A stretch of DNA of 64,000 bases. It comes from an uncultured Candidatus Saccharibacteria bacterium. GTDB lineage: Bacteria > Patescibacteriota > Saccharimonadia > Saccharimonadales > Saccharimonadaceae. A program made the position numbers and the translations under genes. The notes below the pieces were generated by a model. That model was not told the DNA's origin, did no database searches, and saw only the letters and a program-made list of their open reading frames with translations. This document shows, piece after piece, positions 4,901-9,846 of the stretch (the stretch's first letter is position 1; every line of letters starts with the position of its first letter). The stretch spans positions 43,835-107,834 of the forward strand of contig CAMCBN010000004.1 in the NCBI GenBank assembly GCA_945873065.1, written 5' to 3'.

Positions 4901-5704
4901 ATGAAGGAGAAATTTCGGAGGGTAGCAGCGCGAACATCTGTATTGGTGGGTTCAGCAGGCGTTTTTGCGTTAGCGATAGGTGCAGTGCTTATTTGGCTCA
5001 TCACCGGGCCGTTATTTGGATTTTCTGACACCTGGCAATTAATCATCAACACAGGGACGACCATCGTCACCTTCTTGATGGTATTTTTGATCCAAAACAC
5101 TCAAAATCGTGATGGTAAAGCGATTCAGCTCAAGCTCGACGAACTCATTCGCTCGACTAAAGGTGCTCGCATGCGATATGTCGGGTTGGAAGAGTTTAGT
5201 GATGCCGAGCTAGCTGATATCGAAGCAGAAATCCGAGCTATAGCCAACCACCCCGCCTCCAAACGTGCCATGGCGAAATTGCACGAGCGCCTCACCCACG
5301 AGACGCAGCAGCGAGAGAGAAGTAAAAATCCTGTACATAATGCCTCAACACACCAAACTGCGTCGCCAATAGCTGGATCGCAAACCCACCACGTAGTACC
5401 TGCGCCAGTCTCGCGTGCAGCCACAGCTCTGGCTACGACGCCCCATCTATCATCACAACACTCCACGCGATCGCGCCTACAGCAAACTACACCCATATCG
5501 CGCACTCGCCCTATGATGACGAAACCATCCCGACCACAGACGACACCAACACCACCGGGAGCATCAGTCTCACACCACACTCGCACCGAGCTCCGCGCTC
5601 AGCCAGCGACTCATCGCAATGTGAAGCAGCAAGCCCTCACTACCGCTCGCGCCGCGACACCACCCCGGGGTACTGCCACCATGCGACGACGCGTCAGCGG
5701 CTGA
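4901..5704 (+). CDS. Low-affinity iron permease-like membrane protein with a long disordered tail
   Basis: A 267-aa protein. The first 120 residues match the bacterial low-affinity iron permease family (PF04120 type): two membrane helices around residues 12-35 and 45-66, the conserved stretch TGPLFGFSDTWQLIINTGTT and then FLIQNTQNRDGKAIQLKLDE. From about residue 135 to the end the protein is Thr, Pro, Arg, Ser and His rich, without predicted structure, and very basic. The tail is unusual for this family and may bind cell-wall polymer or nucleic acid. Iron transport itself has never been firm for the short bacterial members. Confidence 0.8.
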   Translation: MKEKFRRVAARTSVLVGSAGVFALAIGAVLIWLITGPLFGFSDTWQLIINTGTTIVTFLMVFLIQNTQNRDGKAIQLKLDELIRSTKGARMRYVGLEEFSDAELADIEAEIRAIANHPASKRAMAKLHERLTHETQQRERSKNPVHNASTHQTASPIAGSQTHHVVPAPVSRAATALATTPHLSSQHSTRSRLQQTTPISRTRPMMTKPSRPQTTPTPPGASVSHHTRTELRAQPATHRNVKQQALTTARAATPPRGTATMRRRVSG

Positions 5705-5779
5705 TTTTTTGCATGACATTACATCACAACAGACCAACCCCCAACCGTTTTTAGCGCAACAGCTCCATCTACAGGCCTC

Positions 5780-5807
5780 TTGACCTCCTGATACAATCTG
5801 CTACAAT
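5780..5807 (+). promoter_or_regulatory. Promoter of the arginine leader / argGH operon
   Basis: TTGACC (5780-5785), a 16-nt spacer and TACAAT (5802-5807) preceded by TGC. It combines a -35 with an extended -10. The -10 ends 6 nt before the leader-peptide ATG, so that peptide is probably translated from a leaderless 5' end. Confidence 0.75.
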
Positions 5808-5813
5808 CAGGGC

Positions 5814-5864
5814 ATGACTTATAGGATTAGCACTAGCGTTATCCGTCGTCGCTCTCTCTCGTAA
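5814..5864 (+). CDS. Arginine leader peptide of the argGH attenuator
   Basis: A 16-codon ORF, too short for the ORF track, encoding MTYRISTSVIRRRSLS and ending in TAA. Four of its 16 residues are Arg, with three consecutive codons CGT CGT CGC at 5844-5852, just before the stop. It lies between a promoter and a Rho-independent terminator directly upstream of argG. This is the layout of amino-acid attenuation: a ribosome stalled on the Arg codons would leave the downstream GAGGGCT free to pair with AGCCCTC and prevent the terminator. The ATG is 6 nt after the -10, so no ribosome binding site is available and initiation is probably leaderless. The mechanism is inferred; the sequence elements are all visible. 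Confidence 0.8.
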   Translation: MTYRISTSVIRRRSLS

Positions 5865-5937
5865 GAGGGCTACTTGTCGTACCAAATCAATCTCAATCGA
5901 TTACACTAAAAGCCCTCGTACCAACGAGCGGCTTTTT
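5865..5937 (+). terminator. Transcription attenuator (antiterminator/terminator switch) before argG
   Basis: The terminator stem pairs AAAAGCC-CUCGU with ACGAG-(C)-GGCUUUU around an ACCA loop (5909-5935), followed by a T tract. The competing antiterminator is a perfect 7-bp pairing of GAGGGCT (5865-5871, right after the leader stop) with AGCCCTC (5911-5917), the 5' arm of the terminator. A third pairing of CUCUC in the leader's last codons with GAGGG would sequester the antiterminator arm when the peptide is fully translated. argG follows 24 nt later with its own AGGAGG. Confidence 0.8.
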
Positions 5938-5960
5938 CGTTTTTCAGAAAGGAGGAAAAT

Positions 5961-7223
5961 ATGAAAAACGACATGCCCCATTACAATAAAGTGGCTAGCC
6001 ATGAGGCTCATCAAGGGTCGTTTGACACCTGTCTGCTGCTGTATTCTGGCGGTTTAGATACCTCAGTGATGCTAAAGTGGCTACAAGACAAATACCACTG
6101 CCAGGTTATCACCTTGACAGTCAACATCGGCCAGACTAACGACGATTTAGCTGCGATAGAGAAAAAAGCTCGCGACCTCGGCGCTATCAAAGCGATCACT
6201 GTTGATGCGCGCGATCAGTTCGCCAACGAACTATTGTCGATAGCCATCAAAGCCAATGCCGACTATCAAGGTGGCTACGCCCTGAGTACTCCCCTAGGAC
6301 GGGTGATCATTTCACGACTAGCTGTTGAATACGCTGCCAAATATAACTGCCAGGTCATCGCCCACGGCGCGACTGGTAAGGGCAACGATCAGGTGCGATT
6401 CGAGAGCTATATCACTACGCTCAATCCCGACCTAAAAATTGTCGCTCCAGTGCGAGAATGGAGCATGGGACGAGAAGAAGAAATCGCCTACGCCAAACGA
6501 CACGATATACCAGTACCACATAGCGACGATTCACCATACTCGACTGACGAGAATATGTGGGGCATCACTAGCGAGGGAGGCGAAATCGAGTCGCCAGTTC
6601 ATATACCGCAATATCGGGCTATTTTGAACTGGTGCTCCACGCTAGATGCCGCACCCGAACAACCACAAGATATCACACTTGAATTCCGCCATGGTATCCC
6701 AGTGACACTCGATGGTAAGTCGCTATCGCTGAAGCAACTGATTCACCGCTGCAACCAAATCGGTGCCAAACATGGTGTCGGTGTAGCAACTTTGATCGAA
6801 GATCGGCTCGTCGGACTAAAGGTGCGCGGTGTCTACGAAAACCCAGGCGCTGCTATTTTGATCGCCGCCCACAAAAAACTCGAACAATTAGTCTCGACGC
6901 GCACGGAAAATGAATTAAAGGAAGAAATTGACAAAAAATGGGCCTACCTCACCTATGCTGCTCAATGGTTCGAACCAGTGATCGGCCACCTTCACGCCTA
7001 CATCGACCACCAGAACCGCAAGGTCACTGGCCGGGTAACAGTACGACTCTACAAAGGCACTATCACCATAGTCAGTCTCGACTCGCCACACTCTCTACTT
7101 GATTTAAACTTGGCTACATTCAACACCAACCAAGCATTCAACCAAAATTCATCCGCTGGGTTTATTGAAATTTACTCACTAGCACAGCGCACAGCGCACG
7201 GAGCCTATCATGACGAACAATAA
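5961..7223 (+). CDS. argG: Argininosuccinate synthase
   Basis: A 420-aa enzyme that joins citrulline and aspartate using ATP. The N-terminal PP-loop is intact (LLLYSGGLDTSVMLKWL, residues 26-42), as are the HGATGKGNDQVRFE segment and the DSPYSTDENMWG substrate loop. The start ATG has a near-perfect AAAGGAGG 5 nt upstream. About 25 residues precede the usual N-terminus. It forms an operon with argH (14-nt overlap) behind an arginine attenuator. No argF, carAB or argJ is in the window, so the pair may use citrulline from outside, for instance from a host's arginine deiminase pathway (inference). Confidence 0.97.
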   Translation: MKNDMPHYNKVASHEAHQGSFDTCLLLYSGGLDTSVMLKWLQDKYHCQVITLTVNIGQTNDDLAAIEKKARDLGAIKAITVDARDQFANELLSIAIKANADYQGGYALSTPLGRVIISRLAVEYAAKYNCQVIAHGATGKGNDQVRFESYITTLNPDLKIVAPVREWSMGREEEIAYAKRHDIPVPHSDDSPYSTDENMWGITSEGGEIESPVHIPQYRAILNWCSTLDAAPEQPQDITLEFRHGIPVTLDGKSLSLKQLIHRCNQIGAKHGVGVATLIEDRLVGLKVRGVYENPGAAILIAAHKKLEQLVSTRTENELKEEIDKKWAYLTYAAQWFEPVIGHLHAYIDHQNRKVTGRVTVRLYKGTITIVSLDSPHSLLDLNLATFNTNQAFNQNSSAGFIEIYSLAQRTAHGAYHDEQ

Positions 7224-8415
7224 TAACAAACTATGGCAAGCCGCTAGCTCTGGCACTCTTCACCCCGCTATAGAACATTACACTGTAGGTGATGACCAAA
7301 GTCTCGACCAAAAACTGCTAGGATACGACATCACCGCTACACGAGCCCACGCTCATATGCTGTCGACTATCGGCATAATTAGCACCGACGAATACCAGCG
7401 ACTGGCTCGAGCCCTTGAGGGATTGCACACCGCTTGGCAACAGGGGGATTTCGTAGTTGACGATCGATTCGAAGATGGTCACAGCGCTATAGAAATATAC
7501 CTTACCGAACAACTCGGCGATATTGGCAAAAAAGTCCACACTGGCCGCAGCCGTAACGACCAAGCGCTAGTGATGATGCGCCTCTACCTCAAGGATCAAT
7601 TGAAGCACGTCGCCACCGCCCTCGCCACAACCGTTGACACCTATCGCGCGCAGCAGTATCAGTTCTCTGACCTGCCTATGCCTGGATACACCCACAGCCA
7701 AAAAGCCATGCCAACCACTGTAGGCGCTTGGCTGGGATCATACGGTGACGCCTTTGCAGACCTAGTAGACTACATCAAATCCAGTCGTGGAGTCATTGAC
7801 CAAAATCCCCTAGGTAGCGCCGCAGGATTTGGTGTTAGTCTGCCACTAAATCGGCAAATGACTACGCAAGAGCTAGGTTTTGCTAAAGTCCAGGACAACC
7901 CATTGTATTGTGGCTTGTCGCGTGGTGCTTTTGAGTTAATCGCTGTGCAAGCTCTCAACCCCATCATGGTATTCGCTGGCAAGTTTGCTTCGGATATGAT
8001 TTTGTTCACCACCCAAGAATTCAACTTATTTTCGCTACCGACCACTATGACTACTGGCTCGTCGATCATGCCACACAAACGCAACTACGATGTTTTTGAA
8101 ATTATGCGAGCAAGAGCACATGGCTTTGCCAATCATGCAATGCAGCTACAAGCAGTGTCGACGGGCGTTGGTAGCGGCTATCACCGCGACCTACAGTTGA
8201 CCAAGCAAGTGACGATCAGTGCCTTTGAAACAGCCATCGAAACACTCGAAGTGCTAGCGCTCTGCGTCGCCCATCTGACACCACACGAAGCTAATCTTCG
8301 TGCTGCCATGACCGACGAACTTTACACCGTCGCTGAAATCAACAGATTAGTCGAACGAGGCGTACCGTTTCGTGACGCTTATCGCCAAGTCAAACAACGA
8401 CTCAGCGAAGAGTAA
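7210..8415 (+). CDS. argH: Argininosuccinate lyase
   Basis: A 401-aa member of the fumarase/aspartase superfamily that splits argininosuccinate into arginine and fumarate. Diagnostic segments are KVHTGRSRNDQ (residues 105-120) and the mobile catalytic loop GSSIMPHKRN with its Ser, the superfamily signature in slightly altered form (the usual motif is MPQKKNPD). It is shorter than typical ArgH (about 455-470 aa), mainly because the C-terminal region is trimmed. It overlaps argG by 14 nt, so translation is coupled. Leader, argG and argH make one regulated unit. Confidence 0.94.
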   Translation: MTNNNNKLWQAASSGTLHPAIEHYTVGDDQSLDQKLLGYDITATRAHAHMLSTIGIISTDEYQRLARALEGLHTAWQQGDFVVDDRFEDGHSAIEIYLTEQLGDIGKKVHTGRSRNDQALVMMRLYLKDQLKHVATALATTVDTYRAQQYQFSDLPMPGYTHSQKAMPTTVGAWLGSYGDAFADLVDYIKSSRGVIDQNPLGSAAGFGVSLPLNRQMTTQELGFAKVQDNPLYCGLSRGAFELIAVQALNPIMVFAGKFASDMILFTTQEFNLFSLPTTMTTGSSIMPHKRNYDVFEIMRARAHGFANHAMQLQAVSTGVGSGYHRDLQLTKQVTISAFETAIETLEVLALCVAHLTPHEANLRAAMTDELYTVAEINRLVERGVPFRDAYRQVKQRLSEE

Positions 8416-8458
8416 ATTTTGGCAGGTGCCATCGCCTGGCGATTTGCACTCACTAGAG

Positions 8459-8483
8459 TTTTTTGTTAGAATATTTAGGTTAT
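8459..8483 (+). promoter_or_regulatory. rpmE promoter, near-identical to the rplF promoter
   Basis: A T6 run, then the extended -10 TGTTAGAAT, two variable bases and TTAGGTTAT, with the rpmE ATG overlapping the last bases. The same 25-nt block (23 identical) stands upstream of rplF on the minus strand at 36128-36152. The -10 ends 9 nt before the ATG, so rpmE is probably leaderless. Confidence 0.65.
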
Positions 8484-8868
8484 GAAAAGCAGTATTCACC
8501 CACAGAACTATCGCCCAGTCGTATTCAGCGACGATCAAGCGGGCTTCGCGTTCTTGACTCAGTCAACGGCGCAAACAGACGACACTGTCGTCTGGGAAGA
8601 TGGCAACACCTACCCATTGGTCAAGGTGCATATTTCATCAGCTTCTCACCCATTCTTCACCGGTGAAGAAAAGATTATCGACACCGAAGGTCGCGTCGAT
8701 CGCTTTAAGGCGCGCCAAGCCGCTGCTGAAGCACGCCGCGCTGCTCTTGCCAACAAAGCAAAGAAGGCCAACGCCAATAAGGCAGCCAAGGTAGCCGCCA
8801 ACGAACCGAAGAAGTCAGCCAAAAAATCTTCGACAAAAGCCAAACCCGCCAAGGAGGGCGACAACTAA
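8482..8868 (+). CDS. rpmE2: 50S ribosomal protein bL31, cysteine-free type B, with a basic tail
   Basis: A 128-aa protein. Residues 1-80 match type B bL31 ([15 protein letters not shown], then [15 protein letters not shown] and the DTEGRVDRF end). The four zinc-binding cysteines of type A bL31 are absent. The last 50 residues are an Ala/Lys tail, unusually long for the family and probably disordered rRNA-binding extension. The frame starting at 8463 is a shadow. Expressed from its own promoter after argH and closed by a strong terminator. Confidence 0.93.
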
Positions 8869-8891
8869 AGCATCTGTAATGCGACAATTAA

Positions 8892-8931
8892 CTAAAAACA
8901 CCTTGGGATAGCCTAAGGTGTTTTTAGTTTT
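8892..8931 (+). terminator. Rho-independent terminator after rpmE
   Basis: CTAAAAACACCTT pairs perfectly with AAGGTGTTTTTAG over a 10-nt loop, followed by TTTT. The A/T-rich stem would also work on the opposite strand. Confidence 0.85.
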
Positions 8932-8994
8932 CACAATTCATACCAGCCCCTGCTAGTTTAGTCAAAAACACCAACTCCATACACTAAGAAAGAG

Positions 8995-9022
8995 CCCCAC
9001 TCTTTTACTAGAAAGAGTGGGG
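8995..9022 (-). terminator. GC-rich hairpin, probable terminator of the lipoprotein gene
   Basis: CCCCACTCTTT and AAAGAGTGGGG form a perfect 11-bp stem with a 6-nt loop. On the minus strand it is followed by CTCTTTCTT, a weak U tract. It lies about 100 nt past the lipoprotein stop. A second stem-loop (GGCA..TGCC with an inner GAGA/TCTC) sits between the two, so the 3' region or a separate small RNA could be structured. Confidence 0.5.
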
Positions 9023-9123
9023 TGAGGACGGCAAAGCGAGATTGCAAACGAGTCTCTAGCTGCCACATATTGAGGTTGTCCCAAGATTACTCTCTTTGGA
9101 TTTGTCAAATTGTATGACAAGCG

Positions 9124-9846
9124 TTAACGCGACTCTACTGTGTGACTCTCGTATTTTGTGATCATATCGTTAACTATCGCTTGTGTTCCTGTCGCGCTTT
9201 TTACTGCGCCGTTGGGATATTCTTCTTCCCCTGTCTGACTCGGTTTCTTGTATCCCTGTACGGTCACTTCGTCGGGTGCAAATGGCTTGTCTTGTTTCAT
9301 CTGGACTATCCCTTCAAGCGTAGTATGTTGCTTGCCCGATGAATCGTAAACCGTTGCCGAGATATAGCCTTCCTCTAACTTCGTATCAGGATCACCAAGA
9401 TAATCGCGCAGCTCCTTATCGGTTATGACACGGTCTTGGTTTGAATCAACCTCTTTCGAAGAGTTTGTGAACATATAATATCGCTCGTCAAATCGTGACC
9501 CATCCTCGGGGGTCTGCCCGTAAGTCACCCGGCGTGTCATGTCGAGGTACGGCTCTTTGCCATCTTCCGTGTGACTGTATTCAACTGACACATCCAAACT
9601 ATGACGGCGGTCATTAATCCTGTCCTCTACCACTGGGGTACTGCCATATTTATCACGCCAAATGTCATTCAGCTCGGTACCTGTCGCCTGAGCCTGATAC
9701 TCCATATCATCAAGCGCCTGCAGCGCAGAATCACGCGCTGCTGTATTGACACGATCGTAATCTCCCATGCTAATCTTGCGATCTTCCTGCACCTCTACAG
9801 GTCCATTTTCTCCCGCTCCGCAGCCTGCCAGTGCACTAACTGCCAC
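9124..9846 (-). CDS. Putative lipoprotein with an apparent frameshift in its signal peptide
   Basis: A 240-aa ORF starting at an internal GTG. It contains a lipobox (SALAGC) directly after the start and then a hydrophilic, acidic, extracellular-looking domain of unknown family. A proper signal peptide is missing from this frame. Upstream, a promoter (TGGTATAGT) and ATG at 9917 open a frame reading MSMENRSTNERRRGRG that runs into a stop. Adding one G to the GGGG tract at 9871-9874 joins the two frames into a complete lipoprotein signal peptide (RGRG-SSAVVAGLVAVSALAGC). The gene is therefore interrupted by a 1-nt indel, either real or a sequencing error. Confidence 0.65.
   Translation of the reverse strand: MAVSALAGCGAGENGPVEVQEDRKISMGDYDRVNTAARDSALQALDDMEYQAQATGTELNDIWRDKYGSTPVVEDRINDRRHSLDVSVEYSHTEDGKEPYLDMTRRVTYGQTPEDGSRFDERYYMFTNSSKEVDSNQDRVITDKELRDYLGDPDTKLEEGYISATVYDSSGKQHTTLEGIVQMKQDKPFAPDEVTVQGYKKPSQTGEEEYPNGAVKSATGTQAIVNDMITKYESHTVESR

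Follow-up and report, generated by a model that had tools for sequence, protein, structure and literature searches.

Putative leader-peptide attenuation of argGH in a Saccharibacterium, with similar arginine leaders in other CPR bacteria and in Balneolota

The argGH operon of an uncultured, host-dependent Saccharibacterium is preceded by a short region that we regard, with a probability of roughly 0.9, as a classical ribosome-mediated transcription attenuator sensing the supply of arginyl-tRNA. Cells with such a leader would very probably switch on the arg genes once arginine becomes limiting for the ribosome. An attenuator had been proposed at this place from the letters of the DNA, and comparison with relatives, in which the Arg codons and the pairing arms are conserved, supported that interpretation. 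The support computed here comes from the anatomy of the leader, its conservation, compensated pairing of segments 2 and 3, ribosome geometry, restriction to arg operons and absence of ArgR. Arginine synthesis is usually treated as ArgR-controlled. It seems likely, though we hold this less firmly, that the leader represents an undescribed and widespread class of Arg leader-peptide attenuators replacing ArgR in CPR bacteria and Balneolota, in which the sensing ribosome would begin directly at the 5'-terminal AUG of a leaderless mRNA, so that initiation of transcription, initiation of translation and the sensing of the amino acid would all be linked at a single point. The whole stretch of DNA analysed, 64,000 nt of contig CAMCBN010000004.1, is called the window in the following.

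Results

Anatomy of the argGH leader region

The original prediction had listed a promoter, a 16-codon ORF with CGT CGT CGC, the segment GAGGGCT, its partner AGCCCTC, a terminator and argG, and every position given for them was correct to the base (Table 1). The promoter (5780..5807, forward strand) matches the consensus at 10 of 12 positions. The leader ATG at 5814 lies 6 nt 3' of the -10 box, and transcription of argGH would start at about this position, on the A of the leader ATG. The leader ORF reads ATG ACT TAT AGG ATT AGC ACT AGC GTT ATC CGT CGT CGC TCT CTC TCG TAA. It is accompanied by the full classical set of pairings (1:2, 2:3 and 3:4), with terminator and antiterminator mutually exclusive, both using segment 3. 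A cluster of Arg codons, exclusive hairpins and cognate genes downstream, as known from attenuators, are all present, and switching by a stalled ribosome is indicated by geometry only (see below). The ATG of argG is preceded by a clear Shine-Dalgarno sequence (AAGGAGG), and the start of argH overlaps the end of argG.

Table 1. Features of the argGH region in the window, and T-boxes at arg genes of other CPR genomes.
Feature	Position	Strand	Remarks
Promoter, -35 box TTGACC	5780-5785	+	16-nt spacer to the -10 box
Promoter, extended -10 box TGCTACAAT	5799-5807	+	TG before the -10
Leader peptide ORF MTYRISTSVIRRRSLS, then stop	5814-5864	+	16 codons; without Shine-Dalgarno sequence
Putative sensing codons CGT CGT CGC (Arg)	5844-5852	+	RR to RRRR at the same place in the leaders of relatives
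Hairpin 1:2, GCTCTCT/AGAGGGC	5851-5870	+	-9.6 kcal/mol; overlaps the end of the leader ORF
Segment 2, GAGGGCT	5865-5871	+	Directly 3' of the leader stop; from duplex and ribosome-shadow calculations
Segment 3, AGCCCTC	5911-5917	+	5' arm of the terminator; pairs with segment 2 (antiterminator) or segment 4 (terminator)
Intrinsic terminator hairpin 3:4	5909-5935, T run to 5936	+	-13.7 kcal/mol; one bulged C
argG, argininosuccinate synthase	5961-7223	+	NF001770, 482.7 bits; TIGR00032, 443.4 bits; both above cut-off
argH, argininosuccinate lyase	7210-8415	+	TIGR00838, 277.9 bits, E 1.6e-82; cut-off 279.5 just missed
T-box before argG, argH or their operon (Uhrbacteria, other CPR)	L017:2652-2935
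T-box before argG, argH or their operon (Uhrbacteria, other CPR)	L065:2598-2934
T-box before argG, argH or their operon (Uhrbacteria, other CPR)	L049:850-1121
T-box before argG, argH or their operon (CPR)	L119:3038-3284	-
T-box before argG, argH or their operon (CPR)	L125:2798-2990	-

Conservation in other Saccharibacteria

argG is rare in these bacteria, being found in 10 of 394 genomes of the window's family and 24 of 393 in its order. Our results revealed that all 15 Saccharibacteria operons belonging to the window's ArgG lineage on the ArgG tree open with a short ORF carrying RR to RRRR and followed by a terminator. A 16th Saccharibacteria leader was found in L009, whose ArgG is just 39% identical and belongs to another lineage, and the Saccharibacteria argG genes without a leader all fall in other ArgG lineages. 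Leader peptides situated 5' of argG, each with a terminator behind it, are MTYRHNIVIVARRRRSDSEG (L002), MISSNFAPAVIRRRSDRTRGGCS (L003), MSYHQFADFRRRLRH (L004), MVLLSLISLRRRRL (L009), MTTTHNVIRRRRSLAEG (L010), MIRDAVVVNRRRPRI (L011), MNIVNSGEKERRRPCL (L012), MNKNVRVDSERRRRLMAGLAEVN (L013), MNSLSILQNRRSYRITGSCS (L099) and MTYFVCTKNRRRSTRI (L101). The peptides are unalike except for the Arg run, and within the run synonymous changes occur among CGT, CGC, CGA, CGG and AGA. In three genomes with the gene order argH-argG (L146-L148) the leader precedes argH; in L005 and L100 another gene opens the operon and it is that gene which the leader precedes. A comparison of related Saccharibacteria for conserved Arg codons and complementary arms had been suggested beforehand, and both were kept; an operon retaining argGH after loss of the leader or the arms was not seen among the 15 of the same ArgG lineage.

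Compensated pairing and ribosome position

The leaders could not be aligned outside short segments, hence the complementarity of segments 2 and 3 was tested by permutation of partners instead of a column-by-column count of covariation, using the segment after the Arg run and the 5' arm of the leader's own terminator. In 25 leaders the own 2:3 duplex had a mean of -16.84 kcal/mol versus -10.51 (sd 0.64) with permuted partners, and none of 20,000 permutations reached the own-partner mean. The same held when only the 11 Saccharibacteria were taken (-18.95 versus -14.71; 0/20,000). Furthermore, comparison with shuffled segment 2 gave a mean z of -3.7.

In the ribosome-shadow calculation, in which the ribosome was given a forward shadow of 12 nt, the 2:3 duplex averaged -14.8 kcal/mol for a ribosome stalled at the final Arg codon of the run against -1.5 at the stop, and the stalled state was the stronger one in 36/36 leaders; this drop is partly built in, for less RNA is free downstream with the ribosome at the stop, and part of the 36 leaders had been collected by a scan requiring a duplex, whereas those found visually were not so selected. 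For the window's leader before arm 4 emerges, the probability of 2:3 was 0.99 for stalling at each of the three Arg codons, but 0.00 once the ribosome had reached the stop. In the full-length RNA the terminator exceeds 2:3 in stability whatever the state of the ribosome, and antitermination must therefore be kinetic. Equilibrium before arm 4 likewise favours 2:3 when there is no ribosome at all, so that untranslated RNA might read through unless the early-forming hairpin 1:2 persists.

Restriction to arginine operons

Upstream regions were scanned for a short ATG ORF with two adjacent and three of five identical residues, a terminator and a 2:3 duplex. The scan covered 603 regions, 178 of them before argG or argH and 425 elsewhere. 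Arginine gave 22 matches in the argG/argH regions, any other residue four at most. The other 425 regions contained nine Arg matches, each preceding the first gene of an operon with argG, and four matches for other residues, one of which shares its ORF with an Arg match. That first gene was confirmed by HMM as argF in L025, L031, L043 and L058; in L100 it has no family match. Arg leaders in the scan were limited to argG, argH or the first gene of an operon containing argG. The window's own leader was missed by the scan owing to its bulged terminator. Searching nine genomes for leaderless ORFs with the pattern CGYCGYCG yielded no further Arg leader in the window's genome, where the two additional matches were, in our reading, the beginning of a longer gene and an occurrence out of frame. 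Counts in the remaining genomes of the nine were near those of the reversed-pattern control.

Leaders outside Saccharibacteria

In a collection of named genomes, the same leader anatomy was observed in Peregrinibacteria (L018, L024, L041, L047, L058) and one Peribacteria isolate (L046), in Gracilibacteria (L020, L026, L027, L030), and in one Magasanikbacterium (L021), one Moranibacterium (L019) and one Kerfeldbacterium (L043). Beyond CPR it occurs in Balneolota, for example in Rhodohalobacter (L025, L028, L029, L031, L038), where the leader (e.g., MKFNSHIALSNLRRRRPLGV) stands before argF, with argG following. The leader is present in Saccharibacteria and other CPR, but it is not confined to them. 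The arg operons of these five Balneolota loci (argF-argG-...-argH) open with a strongly conserved leader ending in LRRRRPxGV. On the ArgG tree the label "Arg leader" required 13 changes versus 34.7 with shuffled labels (0/500 as low), and the leader is therefore largely tied to one ArgG lineage, gain and loss being indistinguishable on this tree.

Three contigs of a viral collection (L095-L097), putatively viral, carry ArgG genes whose products are 50-52% identical to that of the window and group together on the tree; no leader was found before these three genes. Just 5' of argG, L130 and L122 contain very short Arg-rich ORFs (MTKRWRRKN and MKYRWRWRNF, each followed by a stop) with a Shine-Dalgarno sequence. 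A terminator is not visible there, and these ORFs may represent a different type of Arg leader.

Putative leaderless start

Among 36 leaders, none had a Shine-Dalgarno sequence of the searched forms before the leader ORF. In the 16 Saccharibacteria leaders the ATG is preceded at a distance of 5-10 nt by a -10-like box (picked by eye in L146 and L147), and in twelve of them the distance is 6 or 7 nt. Some other CPR leaders (L046, L061) show a wider gap of about 20 nt, and a leaderless start is thus not universal. For the window as a whole (66 genes), the distance of -10-like boxes from the ATG has its maximum at 6-8 nt (8, 4 and 3 matches, versus 0-2 at most other distances), therefore leaderless transcripts are probably common in this Saccharibacterium. 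The original prediction had the sensing ribosome start on a leaderless end: the 6-nt gap between -10 and ATG was confirmed, but it is not special to the attenuator, as the window's genes share such spacing. Judged by the position of its promoter, the attenuator would use leaderless initiation just as other genes would. A Shine-Dalgarno-like motif was present at just 24 of the 66 first starts in the window.

Discussion

From these features we infer termination, stalling and the direction of the response as follows. RNA polymerase would start at about the A of the leader AUG, and a ribosome would load on the bare 5' end and translate MTYRISTSVIRRRSLS. When charged tRNA-Arg is ample, the ribosome would reach the stop and cover GAGGGCT; segment 3 would then pair with segment 4, and the resulting terminator would end transcription before argG. 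Under a shortage of charged tRNA-Arg, it would stall in CGT CGT CGC and leave GAGGGCT free to pair with the emerging AGCCCTC. The terminator would come too late, argGH would be transcribed, and arginine would be made from citrulline and aspartate.

In its short ORF with cognate codons, its exclusive 1:2, 2:3 and 3:4 pairings and its terminator before structural genes, the window's leader is similar to the attenuators of his, trp, leu, thr, ilv and phe. However, the cognate amino acid here is arginine, the hosts are CPR bacteria and Balneolota, and the leader ORF begins at, or a few nt from, the predicted 5' end without a Shine-Dalgarno sequence. Ribosome-mediated attenuators are known from Proteobacteria, and some from Actinobacteria (PMC1262725). 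ArgR, which controls the same target genes in other bacteria, differs in being a DNA-binding repressor. It (PF01316) was absent from all nine leader-bearing Saccharibacteria genomes searched, including the window's, while control genomes did match.

In some other CPR bacteria the same genes are preceded by T-boxes (RF00230; Table 1), which likewise switch between antiterminator and terminator, but bind uncharged tRNA directly and have no leader peptide. The Rfam gathering threshold misses these arg T-boxes, and searching by E-value reveals them. For example, two Uhrbacteria argG T-boxes scored 72.2 bits (E 8.8e-16) and 48.7 bits (E 1e-9), both below the gathering score of 93, and most CPR arg T-boxes also fall below the threshold. 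In our reading of the alignment, the specifier position is CGC (Arg) in L017, L065, L119 and L049, with GAA-CGC in both Uhrbacteria. A T-box before argH was recognized by motif in L149 and L150, and a T-box-like sequence precedes argH in L107, where a Saccharibacteria ArgG occurs without an Arg leader. The T-box of L094 was rejected as an arginine T-box, as its specifier position reads GAG. Taken together, the T-boxes with Arg specifiers and the absence of ArgR suggest that arg genes in CPR respond to the charging of tRNA-Arg.

Arg-rich short ORFs also precede the genes under the fungal arginine attenuator peptide and SpeFL, and this common feature would suit a leader peptide that senses free arginine through ribosome arrest, which we consider improbable. 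Those systems resemble the window's leader in that arginine or ornithine acts through a small ORF, by way of its Arg codons or its peptide. However, they regulate polyamine synthesis (for speF see PMC6386406) or CPA1, and rely on a conserved peptide or on other RNA mechanisms. Arrest peptides need conserved residues, whereas the window's peptide is unconserved outside the Arg run, the only part common to its relatives. The Arg-specifier T-boxes on the same genes in other CPR also argue for tRNA-Arg charging rather than for free arginine.

Control of the terminator by a metabolite riboswitch, a T-box or an RNA-binding protein, with translation of the ORF irrelevant, is still less probable. The leader region does fold better than shuffled sequences (z -2.7; 0/200 shuffles as good), and T-boxes do stand before argG or argH in some CPR. 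However, no T-box match was obtained in window positions 5000-9500 at E values up to 1, Rfam gave no sensible match there and none at the scanned leaders of relatives, and the leaders occupy only about 135-175 nt before argG, with a common sequence limited to Arg codons and arms. The absence of ArgR speaks against a role of this protein. Least credible is a constitutive terminator, or one ending an upstream transcript, with a fortuitous Arg-rich ORF and the argGH promoter elsewhere. In favour of such a reading, promoter and terminator matches in the window are by themselves at chance level (4 found versus 4.6 expected, and 5 versus 4.6, from shuffled sequence); this and the bulge in the window's terminator also weigh against the attenuator. 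However, Arg run and terminator, complementary to each other, are found again in 16 Saccharibacteria operons and in further phyla despite unalike peptides, and the leader precedes whichever gene opens the operon. Three consecutive Arg in a 16-codon ORF have a chance of about 0.004 at the window's Arg content; on the sequences compared here, it is conservation among relatives, rather than the window's features alone, that lifts the leader far beyond chance.

The mechanism would be textbook attenuation. New relative to the searched literature are arginine as its cognate amino acid, the phyla concerned and a sensing ORF that is apparently leaderless. A 2005 survey of RNA elements in Actinobacteria reported none for arginine, and named T-boxes as the sole RNA control of arginine genes elsewhere (PMC1262725). 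No Arg leader-peptide attenuator of argG or argF was found in our literature search, which covered a minority of subscription papers and not the 2010 survey of attenuation by Lopatovskaya et al. (cited in PMC4833913). Arg leader attenuation across CPR and Balneolota would fill a gap in the RNA control of arg genes and give CPR bacteria a defined mechanism for reading the arginine supply of their own ribosome. It would also offer a natural test of attenuation begun on leaderless mRNA.

In the window's genome arcA (arginine deiminase) is clustered with genes for an ornithine carbamoyltransferase and an arginine-ornithine antiporter, and the arcA operon has no Arg leader. Judging from gene content, possession of both arcA and argGH enables a cell to degrade arginine to citrulline as well as to synthesize it again. 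The switch would therefore stand at the decision between using arginine up and making it anew. TM7x, a Saccharibacterium in culture, possesses the deiminase operon but lacks argG (PMC12815258).

Two neighbours of the operon were also noted. The gene at 4901-5704 (forward strand), which ends just 5' of the argGH promoter, encodes a predicted membrane protein whose N-terminal half matches the low-affinity iron permease family (PF04120) and whose long C-terminal tail is rich in Arg, Thr and Pro. Downstream, at 8482-8868 on the same strand, lies a gene for a type B ribosomal protein L31 that is extended at the C-terminus by a Lys- and Ala-rich stretch.
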